From the NCBI GenBank assembly GCA_021208645.1, contig JAJOJL010000040.1, forward strand, positions 1-64,000: a stretch of 64,000 nucleotides of DNA. The letters are read 5' to 3'. The stretch is from Bacillus sp. (in: firmicutes) (GTDB lineage: Bacteria > Bacillota > Bacilli > Bacillales > Salisediminibacteriaceae). Below, one piece after another: positions 11,767 to 52,629 of this stretch. The position numbers were made by a program, and so were the translations under genes. The number at the start of each line of letters is the position of its first letter. The first letter of the stretch is position 1. The notes beneath the pieces were generated by a model. That model was not told the DNA's origin, did not search any database, and worked only from the letters and a program-made list of their open reading frames with translations.

Positions 11767-13887
11767 CTACTTATCCTTAACTTTAATCAGTCTTAAACTA
11801 TTTAATGTGACAAGTAAAGTTGCACCCATATCTGCAAAAATGGCAATCCAGAGAGTCAACCAGCCAAAGGGAACTAACAGTAAAGCCAGTGCTTTTATAC
11901 CAAGGGAAAAAAGTATATTTTGCTTAATAATACGCAGCGTTTTTCTACTCAACCCGATTAAATACGGGAGCTTCTTCAGGTCATCCCCCATTAAAGCTAT
12001 GTCAGCCGTTTCAAGGGCTGTATCTGTACCAACCGACCCCATGGCAATTCCTAAGTCTGCTGCAGCTAATGCCGGAGCATCATTCATTCCGTCCCCTACC
12101 ATTGCCACCTTCCCACCTTGTTGCTCTTTTAATCTAGTAATTTCTTTTAGTTTCTCATCTGGGAGTAGTTCTGCTATTACCTCTGAAACACCAACAGAAG
12201 ATCCAATTGCTTGCGCTGTTGTAGCATTATCTCCTGTCAACATTACTGTGTTTTGAATCCCTAGCTCTTGTAAGCTTTGAATAATTCCAGTACTTTCTTG
12301 CCTTACTTCATCCCTGACTGCAATAATACCGTAGATCACTTCTTCACTGCCAATGACTATCGCCGTCTTGCCTTCCATTTGAAAACGGGTTGCTATGAAT
12401 TCCCAGTCGTCCGTATAGAGATTTGTATATTGACTTTTTAAGTAAGCTGGGCTGGCTGCATAAATTAATGTGCCGTTAACGACAGCACACATACCTTTGC
12501 CTGTTAGGGATTCTGCATACTCTACCTTAGCTTGTATAGTAATTTCCTGCTCTTCTGCCTTACGTACAATCGCCTTAGCTAGAGGATGGTTGGAGTACTT
12601 TTCCACTGCGTAGGCCAATTCTAAAACTTCCTTTTCCCTACCGTTTCCTTCGATGTCCGTTACGATTGGAATCCCTTTCGTTAACGTACCTGTTTTGTCA
12701 AAAGCAATCGTATCCAGTTTCCCTGCTTGTTCAAGGAATACCCCGCCTTTAATGAGAACACCATTTTTTGCACTGTTACTAATGGCCGTAACCACAGCTA
12801 CAGGTGTTGATATGACAAGGGCACACGGACAGCCAACCACAAGAGTAGCCAAGCCTAGATAAATCCATTCCTCCCAAGAAGCGCCCATGGCAAGTGGTGG
12901 AAAAACCGCAACTAATAACGCGAGGAGCATAATAAATGGAGTGTAGTATTTCGCAAATCGGTCGATAAATTTCTGGGCAGGTGCCCTTTTGTTTTGTGCT
13001 TCCTCCACAAGGTAGATAATTTTTGCAATTGTCGTATCCTTGATATGCTTTGTAACTTTAACATGTAGGATTCCTTCTTCGTTAATGGTACCTGCAAATA
13101 CTTCATCCCCTGCCCCTTTTGAGACAGGGATACTCTCACCAGTAATGGGAGCCTGATTCACGGCAGAAAACCCTTTTACTACAATCCCATCGAGGGCAAT
13201 TTTTGTCCCAGGTTTTACAAGGATTTCATCCCCTACATGTACGTCAGATAAGGGTAATTTTTTTTCCCCTTCACTTGTAAAAACAATGGCTTCCTTCGGC
13301 GTAGCATCGATTAATGATCGAATCGATTTTCTTGCACGCTCCATAGAGTAAACTTCTAATGCCTCACTAATGGCAAAGAGAATAACGACGACAGCGCCTT
13401 CCCCCCACTCTCCAATTATGGCTGCGCCAATAATAGCGATTGTCATTAATGTCTTCATATCAAATTCAAGCTGCAAAAGATTTTTTATTCCTTGTAAAAA
13501 TAAGCGGTAACCTCCTATTACCATACCTGTTAGAAACAAGCCAATGGTAAGAGGGTGGTGTTCCCCATGAGTAAAAACAGTAACCCAGCCGAAAATAACA
13601 AACATGCTGGCAATAATGACTAGGAGATTTTTTCTGGTATTCCAAGTTGGTGTGTCGTCTGTCAAATCGTTCCCTACAGATGTAAGCTTAAGATTTTCAA
13701 ATGCGCCTGCTTTTTCTAAATCATGAATCGAAGGGGTTCCGTCGACCCACAGTTTTGCAGCAGAAAAGTTTACTTTCGCATCTTTAACATTTGGCAATTC
13801 TTTTACATTCCGCTCGAACCGAGCAGCGCAGCTTGATCAGGTGAACCCTTGAACATAATACTCTTTTCTATTATGTATGTTAGTCAT
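11767..13887 (-). CDS. cadA: Cd/Zn/Pb-type P1B ATPase (CadA) with in-frame UGA at codon 17 (candidate selenocysteine)
   Basis: CPC motif VGCPCALVISTP, AFDKTGTLTKG, MVGDGMNDAPALAAADLG. From ATG at 13887 (GGAGGAG RBS, ATGA overlap with the arsR stop) the frame reads MTNIHNRKEYYVQGFT[TGA]SSCAARFERNVKELPNVKDAKVNF, an HMA domain with the first Cys of CxxC replaced by TGA. The given ORF track starts only at TTG 13797. Confidence 0.85.
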
Positions 13888-14243
13888 TTTAGCTCCTCCC
13901 GTCGATGGGCAAACGCAATATTGATTAAATCCTTTACATGGTTGTCGTCAAGCCGATAAAAAACAAGTTTCCCTTCTTTACGGGAATCGGCAAGCCTTTG
14001 TTTCTTCAGGAGTCGTAAGTGATAGGATGCTGTTGCAGTAGAAGATTGGATAATATTTGCCACATCACAAACACATAACTCTTCTTCCAACGTCAAAGCG
14101 TAGGCAATTTTCAATCTGGTCTCGTCTGCCAACAACTTAAAGATTTCCGTGGTTGAAAGGATTTCCTCCTCAATGATTTTTTGTTGGGCGTTATTTACTT
14201 TTTCTTCATCGAAACAATATATCTCACAAGTATCATTCGTCAT
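13884..14243 (-). CDS. ArsR/SmtB-family metalloregulator (CadC-like)
   Basis: Winged HTH with ELCVCDVANIIQSSTATASYHLRLLKKQRLADSRKEGKLVFYRL; adjacent to and overlapping cadA. Confidence 0.9.
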   Translation of the reverse strand: MTNDTCEIYCFDEEKVNNAQQKIIEEEILSTTEIFKLLADETRLKIAYALTLEEELCVCDVANIIQSSTATASYHLRLLKKQRLADSRKEGKLVFYRLDDNHVKDLINIAFAHRREELK

Positions 14244-14274: not shown

Positions 14275-14296
14275 CATTCAAATATTTATTTGAATG
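14275..14296. promoter_or_regulatory. CadC/ArsR-type operator palindrome 1
   Basis: cattcaaatatttatttgaatg immediately upstream of arsR-cadA. Confidence 0.75.
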
Positions 14297-14318: not shown

Positions 14319-14342
14319 ACATTCAAACATTTGTTTGAATGT
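14319..14342. promoter_or_regulatory. CadC/ArsR-type operator palindrome 2
   Basis: acattcaaacatttgtttgaatgt; same half-sites (ATTCAAA/TTTGAAT) as the first. Confidence 0.75.
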
Positions 14343-17554: not shown

Positions 17555-18245
17555 CTACACTTCCGGAACTTTATATCCTATTCCCCAAACAGTCTCTATT
17601 ACAGGTTCATTATAACTCACAGCCTTCAACTTCTCGCGAATATTTTTTATATGGGTGTCTACTGTACGGTTGTCCCCTTCATATTCCATTCCCCACTCTA
17701 GTTCTAGCAAATGGTCCCTGCTATAAACTCTACCTCGATTGCTTGCCAGTCGGTAAAAAATTTGGAATTCTTTTTTTGTTAAAGGGAGAGTTTGACCCTT
17801 AAAAGAAATTTGATAGCTACTAGGTTGGAATAATAATTCTTTAACGGTAAAAGTATCCTCTTTATGCTTGATATTCTTCGTTCTCCTCAGGATTGATCCA
17901 ATCCTTGCTGCTAGCTCTTTTGGTTCAAACGGTTTAACCATATAGTCGTCAGCCCCAAGCTTTAGTCCTTCCACTACTCTCTCTGTATCTCCTAAAGCCG
18001 TTAAAAGAATAACAGGAATTTGATTTTCCAGATGCCCCCTTAAAGTTTTCAGCAACTCAAACCCGTCCACTTCTGGCATCATAATATCTAATATAATTAG
18101 ATCATAATTGCCAGTAATAATTTTATCTAATGCCTCTTCTCCGTTGGAAGCTTACGTCAAGGCTGTACTGATATGGCGCAAGGCAAACCCTTAGCAATTT
18201 CCTCATTTCGGCTTCATCATCTACAAGTAAAATTCGTTCACTCAT
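17555..18245 (-). pseudogene. OmpR-family response regulator, frameshifted as given
   Basis: MSERILLVDDEAEMRKLLRVCLAPYQYSLDV from ATG 18245, then a frame change near 18147 into ASNGEEALDKIITGNYDLIILDIMMPEVDGFELLKTLRG...winged HTH. Confidence 0.8.
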
Positions 18246-42615: not shown

Positions 42616-43888
42616 GTGGCTGAAATTCCAATAAACTTAATCGGGCTATTCTTGTTGCTGATGGTTATGTCTGCCTTTTTTTCCTCTGCAGAAACAGCCT
42701 ATTCAAGTGCTAATCGGATTCGGGTCAAAACCATGAGTGATGATGGGAATAGTGGTGCGAAACGAACCTTACACATCCTGGACAATTTCGATCAAGCCCT
42801 TTCCACCATCTTAGTGGGAAATAACTTAGTGAACATTGCTGCGGCTACCATTTCTGCTCAAGTTTCCACTACGATTTGGGGGCCAAGTCTCGGCGTATTT
42901 ATCAGTACCTTTGTTGTGACCATCCTCGTTCTTATTTTTGGCGAAATACTGCCTAAATCGTATGCAAAAGAGTTTGCCGAAACCTTTTGTGCAAAGATTT
43001 CTGGGGTCCTTTGGTTTCTAATGAAAGCTCTATCACCCATTACATGGTCATTTATTCAATTAAAACGTTTTGTCTCCAAGCTCATTAAAAAAAGAGTCCG
43101 CTAATCCATCCGTTACGGAGGAAGAACTGAAAGTCCTTATTGACATTAGTGAAGAAGAAGGCGTTATTGATGAAAGTGAAAAGGAAATGGTACATCGCTC
43201 CCTTGAGTTTAACGATATTATCGTTGCAGAGATTTTTAAGCCAAGAACAGACATGGTAGCAGTTGATATAAATGATTCCATCGACAACATTAAAAATATT
43301 TTTATAAAGGAACGTTTTTCCCGTATACCTGTTTATGAAGGAAATATTGACAATATTGTTGGTATCCTGTCGGAGCGAGACTTTCTCACTTCCTACATCC
43401 AAAAATATGAGGAAATGGAAATAAAGTCCCTCCTGCGGCAGCCCGTGTTTGTGGTGGAATCTATGCGAGTCCATACTTTGCTTCCCCAACTACAAAAAAA
43501 CAAAGGGCATATGGCAATTGTCATTGATGAATACGGAGGTACTTCTGGACTGATTACATTAGAAGATATATTAGAAGAGATCGTCGGAGATATCTGGGAT
43601 GAGCATGATGAAGATATACATCTATTAAAAGAGATTGATCCATCAACTTTTATTTATCATGCAGACTATCCACTGGATGACTTTGTAAGGCACATGGGAG
43701 TAGAACTTCCCGATACGACGTACCACACCCTCGGTGGATGGCTGTCAGACGTATTTCAGCGTATTCCAGCCATTGGAGAAAGTGTTACTTACGAACACCT
43801 TGACCTGGAAATTCTCGAGAGTGAGCAGCGGAGGATTCGCTCCATAAAGGTCATTACATCTAAACCAGCATCTATCCACCAAGATTGA
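42616..43888 (+). pseudogene. HlyC/CorC (CNNM-CBS-CorC_HlyC) transporter, frameshifted as given
   Basis: MVMSAFFSSAETAYSSANRIRVKTM, NLVNIAAATISAQ; second ORF with CBS pair and VVIDEYGGTSGLITLEDILEEIVGDIWDEHD. A7 run at 43087-43093 is the break. Confidence 0.9.
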
Positions 43889-43973
43889 ACAGTATGTCAA
43901 AACAACATTTTTTAATTTAACCCCAGTCTCTGCTAGAATAAAGCTAAGAACTTTAAACTGTGAGGGGTTTACA

Positions 43974-44612
43974 TTGAATAAAATTACCAGTTTGGTTATC
44001 GTCGTTATTGCCCTAGTCGTTGTTGGCTATGTGATCATAGATCATTTTAATACAATGGAACAGGATGCAAACCAGCAACGGTTGGATGAATACTTAGCTA
44101 ATCAGGGTTTGGATCCCCGTGAAGAAGAGGAGTATGTGGAATCAGATGAATACGGGCCTTACAAAGGGATGATGGCACCTACCTTTTCCCTACCTTCCTG
44201 GGACGATTCCAAGGATATTTACTTAAGGGACTATGAAGGCAGTTTTGTGATTATTAATGCTTGGGCCTCCTGGTGTCCACCATGCAGGGATGAAATCCCT
44301 TATTTAATTGAATTCCACGAGAATTACTTAGATGATGAAAACGTACATGTTCTTGGTGTAAACATTACCACTACGGAGGCGAATGTTTCCAGTGCAGTAA
44401 CTTTTATTAACGACTTTAATATTTCTTACGACATTGTAATGGATCACGATGGCTTCGTGGAACGGAACTACCGTATTTTCAGCCTACCCATGACTTTTGT
44501 CGTGGATCCCGATGGTAGGATTGTCATTCGAAAGACTGGTTTTATGGACTATGATATGATTGTGGATATTTACGAGGAAGCAATGGAGATTTATGAAAAG
44601 ACTCCTTCATAA
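43974..44612 (+). CDS. TlpA/ResA-type membrane-anchored thioredoxin
   Basis: MAPTFSLPSWDDSKDIYLRDYEGSFVIINAWASWCPPCRDEIPYLIEF. Confidence 0.9.
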   Translation: MNKITSLVIVVIALVVVGYVIIDHFNTMEQDANQQRLDEYLANQGLDPREEEEYVESDEYGPYKGMMAPTFSLPSWDDSKDIYLRDYEGSFVIINAWASWCPPCRDEIPYLIEFHENYLDDENVHVLGVNITTTEANVSSAVTFINDFNISYDIVMDHDGFVERNYRIFSLPMTFVVDPDGRIVIRKTGFMDYDMIVDIYEEAMEIYEKTPS

Positions 44613-51193: not shown

Positions 51194-51925
51194 TAGTTGA
51201 TACAGTTCTTTCCACTTTTGCAAGAATGGAGCTGACGCTTCGTTTGGTTGGTTTATTACCTCTTTCGTCTTCCCTAATTGGGTTAGTTCTCCATTCATAA
51301 TAACAGCCAAACTTTTCGTCAGGTTATTAATTTCGATTAAATCATGACTCACAAATAACGTAGTTGTATTTGTTTCTTTTAATATTTCTTTGAAATCTTC
51401 AATAAGCTGTATTTTCGTAGGAAAGTCCAAGGCAGAAAAAGGTTCGTCAAGAAATAACACTTCCGGCTCGAGGATCAATGCACGGGCAAGATTTACCCGT
51501 TGTGCCTCTCCGCCAGACAAAGCGCCACTATTTTTCTTCGCCAAGTGAGATATATTAAACTTTTCCAGCCAATACACCACTTTTTCATTGATTTCTTTCT
51601 TCTTTACCTTACGCAGTTTTAAACCGATGGCTACATTGTTAAAAACATTCATATCAAAGAGTAAGGATTGCTGCATGGCAACTGCCAGCCTCCGCCTTAA
51701 CTCTAGTGGCAACGTATCTGCATGCCTTGCTTCCCCTTTAAAGTACACCTTGCCCTCACTCGGTGCCTGTAAAAAAGCTAATGTTTTTAACAAGGTCGTC
51801 TTCCCAGCCCCATTGGGACCGATGACACCAACAATGTCCCCTTTTTCTAAATTAAAACGAGGGATATCTAATAGGGTCTCTTTATTCACTTTAAATTTCA
51901 CTTGTTCCAACTGTAAAATCTTCAT
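51191..51925 (-). CDS. Tungstate/molybdate-type ABC transporter ATP-binding protein (TupC-like)
   Basis: VIGPNGAGKTTLLKTLAFLQAPSEGKVYFKG, LSGGEAQRVNLARALILEPEVLFLDEPFSALD; operon context. Confidence 0.85.
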   Translation of the reverse strand: MKILQLEQVKFKVNKETLLDIPRFNLEKGDIVGVIGPNGAGKTTLLKTLAFLQAPSEGKVYFKGEARHADTLPLELRRRLAVAMQQSLLFDMNVFNNVAIGLKLRKVKKKEINEKVVYWLEKFNISHLAKKNSGALSGGEAQRVNLARALILEPEVLFLDEPFSALDFPTKIQLIEDFKEILKETNTTTLFVSHDLIEINNLTKSLAVIMNGELTQLGKTKEVINQPNEASAPFLQKWKELYQL

Positions 51926-52629
51926 ACGCGCTGCTTCCTTTGTTGTAAGGTTGTTAATAGAAAGGTAATCATAAATGCCAATGTCATTAAAATAAGGGAC
52001 AAGGCGATCGCCACGTCAAAGTTTCCTTTCGAGACTTCCATTACCATAGACGTCGTAAGGATTCGCGTATCTCCCCGGATATTTCCACCTACCATCATCG
52101 CTGCTCCTACTTCCGCTAAGACCCTTCCTAAGCCAGCAATGATCGCGGCAAAAATAGCTAGTTTTGTTTCCTTCAAAAGGATGACAAATCGTTGCATTCT
52201 CGTTGCTCCTAAAGCCTTAATTTGCATGAGCATCTTATTGTCAATCTGTTGAAATGCCGCTGCTGTCAACCCGATGATGATGGGAAGGGAGACTAAAATC
52301 TGCGCCATAATAATGGCATGGGTTGTATACAGCAACCCTAAATGACCTAAAGGACCGCTTCGCCATAAAAGCATGGTAATGTATAGGCCCGCTACAACAG
52401 GTGGCAAGCCCATACCTATATTAACAAACACGAGAATGATTTTTTTGCCGGGAAAGGTTTTGAGTCCAAGAAATAATCCAAGGGGTAACCCTACAATCGT
52501 ACTAATAAAAACGGCTGTTAAACACACCCTTAAAGTGGTTAGAGTTATGTCGTAAATTTCCCTATCTCCACTCATAATCATTTCTATGGCTTTTACTATT
52601 CCTTCAAAGATGAGATTCATTGCAAACAC
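51922..52629 (-). CDS. Tungstate-type ABC transporter permease (TupB-like)
   Basis: IVGLPLGLFLGLKTFPGKKIILVFVNIGMGLPPVVAGLYITMLLWRSGPLG; GRVLAEVGAAMMVGGNI. Confidence 0.9.
   Translation of the reverse strand: MFAMNLIFEGIVKAIEMIMSGDREIYDITLTTLRVCLTAVFISTIVGLPLGLFLGLKTFPGKKIILVFVNIGMGLPPVVAGLYITMLLWRSGPLGHLGLLYTTHAIIMAQILVSLPIIIGLTAAAFQQIDNKMLMQIKALGATRMQRFVILLKETKLAIFAAIIAGLGRVLAEVGAAMMVGGNIRGDTRILTTSMVMEVSKGNFDVAIALSLILMTLAFMITFLLTTLQQRKQRV

Follow-up and report, generated by a model that had tools for sequence, protein, structure and literature searches.

Among the selenoprotein families predicted so far, P-type ATPases with a UxxC motif already figure, represented by a single protein, ABB15669.1 (PMC13188914, PMC9312934). 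In the GOS survey the selenocysteine (Sec) form of the ATPase accounted for 1 sequence versus 882 for the Cys form (PMC2398784). ATPases are absent from the deep-Sep paper, and our literature search, made in an incomplete collection, found no description of a Sec P-type ATPase in Bacillaceae. The cadA gene analyzed here resembles the predicted Sec cation-transporting P-type ATPase in being a P1B ATPase of the TIGR01525 type with a UxxC motif and predicted Sec insertion (PMC13188914, PMC9312934, PMC2398784). It is set apart from the published family, known from one representative in the reviews' descriptions, by the presence of its form in 39 of 101 related genomes, by two hairpin types, by covariation and by Sec/Cys switching. 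With the Cys-form Cd/Zn/Pb P1B ATPases CadA and ZntA it shares the domain order, the CPC and DKTGT motifs and the cadC-cadA operon, and it differs from them by a predicted Sec where their HMA motif has its first Cys. The closest solved structures are PDB 4umv and 7qbz, and a search of plasmids listed heavy-metal ATPases at up to about 83% identity.

The cadA gene of the window

The window, i.e. the whole stretch of 64,000 nucleotides under analysis, carries cadA on the reverse strand (11767-13887). Direct reading bears out the first-pass annotation, according to which the frame is broken by a single TGA: the reverse complement is one frame of 706 codons from ATG to TAG, and its sole interruption is the TGA at 13837-13839 (reverse strand), the predicted Sec17. 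In profile searches the protein scored 609 bits against TIGR01525 (heavy-metal P1B ATPase, cut-off 346) and 542 bits against TIGR01512 (Cd-type, cut-off 313.5), as a Cd/Zn-type P1B ATPase. The HMA motif of CadA-type ATPases normally reads GFTCxxC. Residues 14-20 read GFT[UGA]SSC here, within a heavy-metal-associated (HMA) domain covering residues 10-56 (13720-13860, reverse strand; Pfam PF00403, E 6e-9), in agreement with the same annotation, which had placed the UGA on the first Cys of the CxxC motif with the second Cys intact. A CxxC with both Cys is absent, the first being UGA; this missing Cys is what makes the protein the Sec form of CadA, and it is not required for membership of the CadA ATPase family. 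The first in-frame start after the UGA is a TTG (13795-13797, reverse strand), a possible but unsupported restart.

The remainder of the operon lies upstream on the same strand. The GGAGGAG ribosome binding site (13893-13899) and the ATGA overlap with the arsR-type stop, both claimed earlier, were read in the sequence. The overlapping gene (13884-14243) encodes a cadC-like ArsR/SmtB metalloregulator (NF033788, 90 bits, cut-off 55) with CEIYC and CVC motifs, as in CadC. Two palindromes, TCAAATAAATATTTGA (14278-14293, exact match) and TCAAACAAATGTTTGA (14323-14338, 2 mismatches), are probable cad operators, a role that we assume from the staphylococcal cad system. Elsewhere in the window, a frameshift near 18150 divides a response regulator gene (17555-18245, reverse strand), with LLVDDEAEMRKLL in one frame and ASNGEEALDKI in another, and 43064-44609 and 51925-52015 also contain frames that are split and overlap. 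These split frames suggest indel errors.

Recurrence of the UGA codon and of its hairpin

A total of 100 related genomes were searched with the read-through CadA protein, and the codon was taken from 90 loci. At exactly the Sec codon, TGA is present in 41 loci from 39 of 101 genomes (the window's own included) and TGT or TGC in 49 loci. All 41 TGA loci keep the second Cys of UxxC and an open frame of 683-704 codons from the TGA on; the peptide upstream of the UGA (GF/L-T/S) is also kept in these loci, though its codons vary. That UGA, second Cys and a hairpin should come together at one and the same codon of 41 loci is far beyond chance. Genome G042 was rejected as a carrier of the TGA form, its single TGA being located upstream of the gene and off the Sec codon.

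A search of the order for the TGA motif retrieved 84 of 399 genomes and 41 of 135 genera, with 0 for a backward control pattern in all listed counts. A scan of GTDB contigs gave at least 120 matches, and those listed comprise 117 in-frame cadA matches and 3 chance matches, the latter (L165, L267 and L268) being located outside cadA. The TGA-form matches listed from these contigs are mostly from Bacillales, with others from Clostridia and from Actinomycetota MAGs, and a few matches look near-duplicate or mislabelled. The Sec-cadA of locus L186 (JAGGQZ010000003.1), from a record titled Chryseobacterium sp. ISL-80, is of the Bacillus type and nearly the same as that of Bacillus sp. ISL-45/ISL-37, and the organism label of this record is probably wrong. 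The CadA of several clostridial and actinomycetal MAGs (L179, L197, L198, L202, L207, L211, L222 and L225) has the same UGA in a GITU(M/L)DCA motif; within the Sec form, this set seems to make up a branch of its own.

The alternation of TGA with TGT or TGC among CadA homologues, a point raised by the first-pass annotation, is apparent in the 41 and 49 loci and also in a tree of 82 CadA proteins computed with the Sec residue masked. The tree needs 16 Sec/Cys changes, at least 11 of them forced by well-supported branches, these counts being approximate as the tree is a quick one. Two cadA genes, L098 (TGT) and L100 (TGA), are 99.6% identical, with 9 differences over 2118 nt; all 9 lie between -43 and +65 of the Sec codon (about 110 nt), and the hairpin is present in both. 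The pattern is like that which a local exchange of a Sec/Cys module would leave. Separate Cys cadA copies are kept alongside in some genomes, e.g. G003, G063, G066 and G097.

The hairpin of the window, CUGCUCG-GUU-CGAGCGG (13810-13826, reverse strand), is a predicted SECIS according to folding and conservation of pairing; it exists as first described, with 7 bp and a loop that starts 18 nt past the UGA. It falls within the bSECIS constraints of PMC13188914: a 3-nt loop that begins with G, a stem of 7 bp, a spacing of 17 nt and an MFE under -7.5. The 45 nt after the UGA fold at -10.5 kcal/mol; when these residues are recoded synonymously, 4.7% of the variants are equally stable, which taken alone is weak evidence for a SECIS. 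Over all loci, the fold stability beyond codon choice has a mean z of -1.96 in the 41 TGA loci versus -0.21 in 39 Cys loci (Mann-Whitney p 1.2e-10).

Two hairpin types are found among the TGA copies: type A, that of the window (CUGCUC-RGUUY-GAGCRG), and type B (GUUC-GARNN-GAAC), sited 5 nt further on and having a less typical loop with G first, then A. For type A, 99.2% of the cells are paired in 18 distinct TGA sequences versus 28.6% in Cys sequences, and full pairing is seen in 0 of 39 Cys sequences. The loop-closing pair of type A shows a compensatory change from G-C to A-U, and in Ammoniphilus (L178) a stem pair changes from G-C to U-A through an Ala-to-Ser and an Arg-to-Lys replacement, one in each arm. 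In both types, double (compensatory) changes are more numerous than in any of 2000 shuffles, many type B sequences having been chosen by a pattern that fixes some hairpin bases, with the same result in the relatives, which were taken without a pattern. Slid pairings leave under half of the cells paired. Folding and conservation of the hairpin, which had been put forward as a check of the first description, thus yield compensatory changes in TGA copies only. In type B sequences, the codons CAC CTG GAT at 39-50 nt past the UGA show unusually little variation (CTG in 115 of 124), and may belong to a more extended RNA structure.

Selenocysteine decoding in relatives and in the genome of the window

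Sec machinery in the relatives was defined as selA and/or tRNA-Sec over the cut-off. Among the 100 relatives, a TGA copy occurs with machinery in 38 cases and without it in 0, and genomes with no TGA copy have the machinery in 27 cases and none in 35 (Fisher 4.8e-10, with kinship ignored, so that the significance is inflated). In tree-independent pairs all differences are in the expected direction, but the pairs are too few (median p 0.25). In another set of 57 TGA genomes, selA is over the cut-off in 55. The two exceptions, G201 and G407, are nearly complete genomes with the TGA motif and with selA and tRNA-Sec not over the cut-off; recent acquisition would account for them, as would a recent loss of the machinery. 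The frame of the Sec-form cadA of G201 (L191) is intact, and the gene is near bdbC/D-like and copC/D-like genes.

In the assembly from which the window is taken (167 contigs, 76.6% complete), selA, selB, selD and tRNA-Sec were not found over the cut-off: every selB and selD match is below it, and two weak tRNA-Sec matches were discarded as tRNA-Gly genes. Eight of eight relatives of the same genus have selA and tRNA-Sec, and in three of them a selA-selD-selB cluster adjoins aconitase. Here aconitase is on contig C29, whose edge comes about 190 bp past a region shared with the relatives, in which this region comes about 120 bp after selA. Because the contig ends so soon after the shared region, the sel locus is probably in an assembly gap; because no selA end is seen at the edge, the locus may have moved or may lie in another region. 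Three formate dehydrogenase alpha genes of this genome (L287, L290 and L291, on contigs C27, C166 and C11) have UGA-His at the canonical Sec position, each UGA being followed by a GCCGGUCUGGC hairpin with a GGUCU SECIS loop. Because these three genes carry the canonical UGA, the organism very probably decodes Sec. The cadA hairpin is at a distance similar to that of these SECIS (fdhA type), whose 5-nt loop is of the GGUNN type, and differs from them by its loop, RGUUY with a closing pair in type A and GARNN in type B.

Readings of the UGA codon and their significance

We estimate at about 0.93 the probability that the cadA of the window is a selenoprotein gene, in which a SelB-dependent Sec at the UGA would give a UxxC metal site. 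Cd, Pb or Zn would release the CadC-like repressor and allow the transcription of cadC-cadA. SelB with Sec-tRNA(Sec) would bind the mRNA hairpin just past codon 17, and Sec would be inserted at the UGA, yielding an N-terminal HMA domain with UxxC in place of CxxC; with no selenium or no Sec machinery, translation would end after 16 residues. The selenolate would most likely serve as a soft ligand or a redox-sensitive metal-binding residue of this regulatory or delivery domain, and synthesis of the pump would depend on selenium. As far as comparative sequence data go, the position of the UGA, the hairpin, its covariation, the link with Sec genes and the alternation with Cys establish the predicted recoding signal and its conservation. 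Evidence that counts against the selenoprotein reading consists of the sel genes and tRNA-Sec not found over the cut-off in the incomplete assembly, of the edge of C29 with no selA end, and of the TGA motif in G201 and G407. The candidate Sec-containing metal P-type ATPase of the first-pass annotation is supported by the alternation, by a hairpin conserved in TGA copies only and by the link with the machinery; its tie of the UGA to Sec decoding holds in the association of TGA copies with selA/tRNA-Sec among relatives.

A sequencing or assembly error, or a nonsense mutation specific to the strain, would place a TGA where the true codon is TGT or TGC. The fragmentation and incompleteness of the assembly would favour such an error, as would other broken frames of the window such as that of the response regulator, but genomes sequenced independently have the same TGA in 40 other loci, the hairpin occurs in TGA copies only, and the motif recurs across the order with no hit of the backward control in the listed counts. 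We therefore reject error as a general explanation, since relatives share the TGA codon, and regard it as exceedingly improbable. Alternatively the UGA could be a real stop, with a restart at the TTG (13797) or an ATPase made without its HMA domain. A long ORF does begin at this TTG, the gene persists in G201 and G407, where selA/tRNA-Sec are not over the cut-off, and related pumps can probably carry out basic transport without their N-terminal metal domain. Nevertheless the HMA sequence is conserved before as well as after the UGA, with the second Cys retained in 41 of 41 loci, the hairpin is maintained with compensatory change and TGA copies are tied to Sec machinery. Conservation on both sides of the UGA leads us to reject the nonsense codon with TTG restart as a general explanation, and we judge it very unlikely.

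The UGA might also act mainly as a selenium sensor, the supply of selenium gating pump synthesis by way of Sec insertion, with a secondary role for Sec chemistry in the metal site. Termination at such an early UGA (codon 17) would be cheap, and the separate Cys copies of some genomes fit this scheme. We find it unlikely: in every TGA locus examined the UGA is on the metal-binding Cys and at no other early codon, and because of this constant position the residue itself appears to matter.

Under the preferred reading, in which Sec is inserted at the UGA, the cadA of the window is a new and strongly supported member of the predicted Sec P-type ATPase family. There is also evidence, from the genomes compared, of features new to the family: a wide spread in Bacillales, two predicted SECIS architectures and repeated Sec/Cys switching. 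Tentatively, and at somewhat less than even odds, many metal pumps of Bacillales might be selenoproteins in which the selenolate is a metal ligand and not a redox catalyst, with Sec and Cys switched often, two SECIS hairpins of different build arisen in the same coding stretch, and cadmium resistance tied to the supply of selenium. Among these soil-dwelling and salt-loving bacteria, Sec-CadA would be common yet barely recorded, and annotation may have taken many Sec-cadA genes for broken or truncated ones, because the NCBIfam matches of the cadA protein include no Sec-specific model. Most selenoproteins are oxidoreductases, whereas the predicted Sec is here in the metal-binding site of a transporter. 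Because the hosts are often culturable and the natural Sec/Cys pairs almost identical, the benefit of Sec over Cys would be directly testable.
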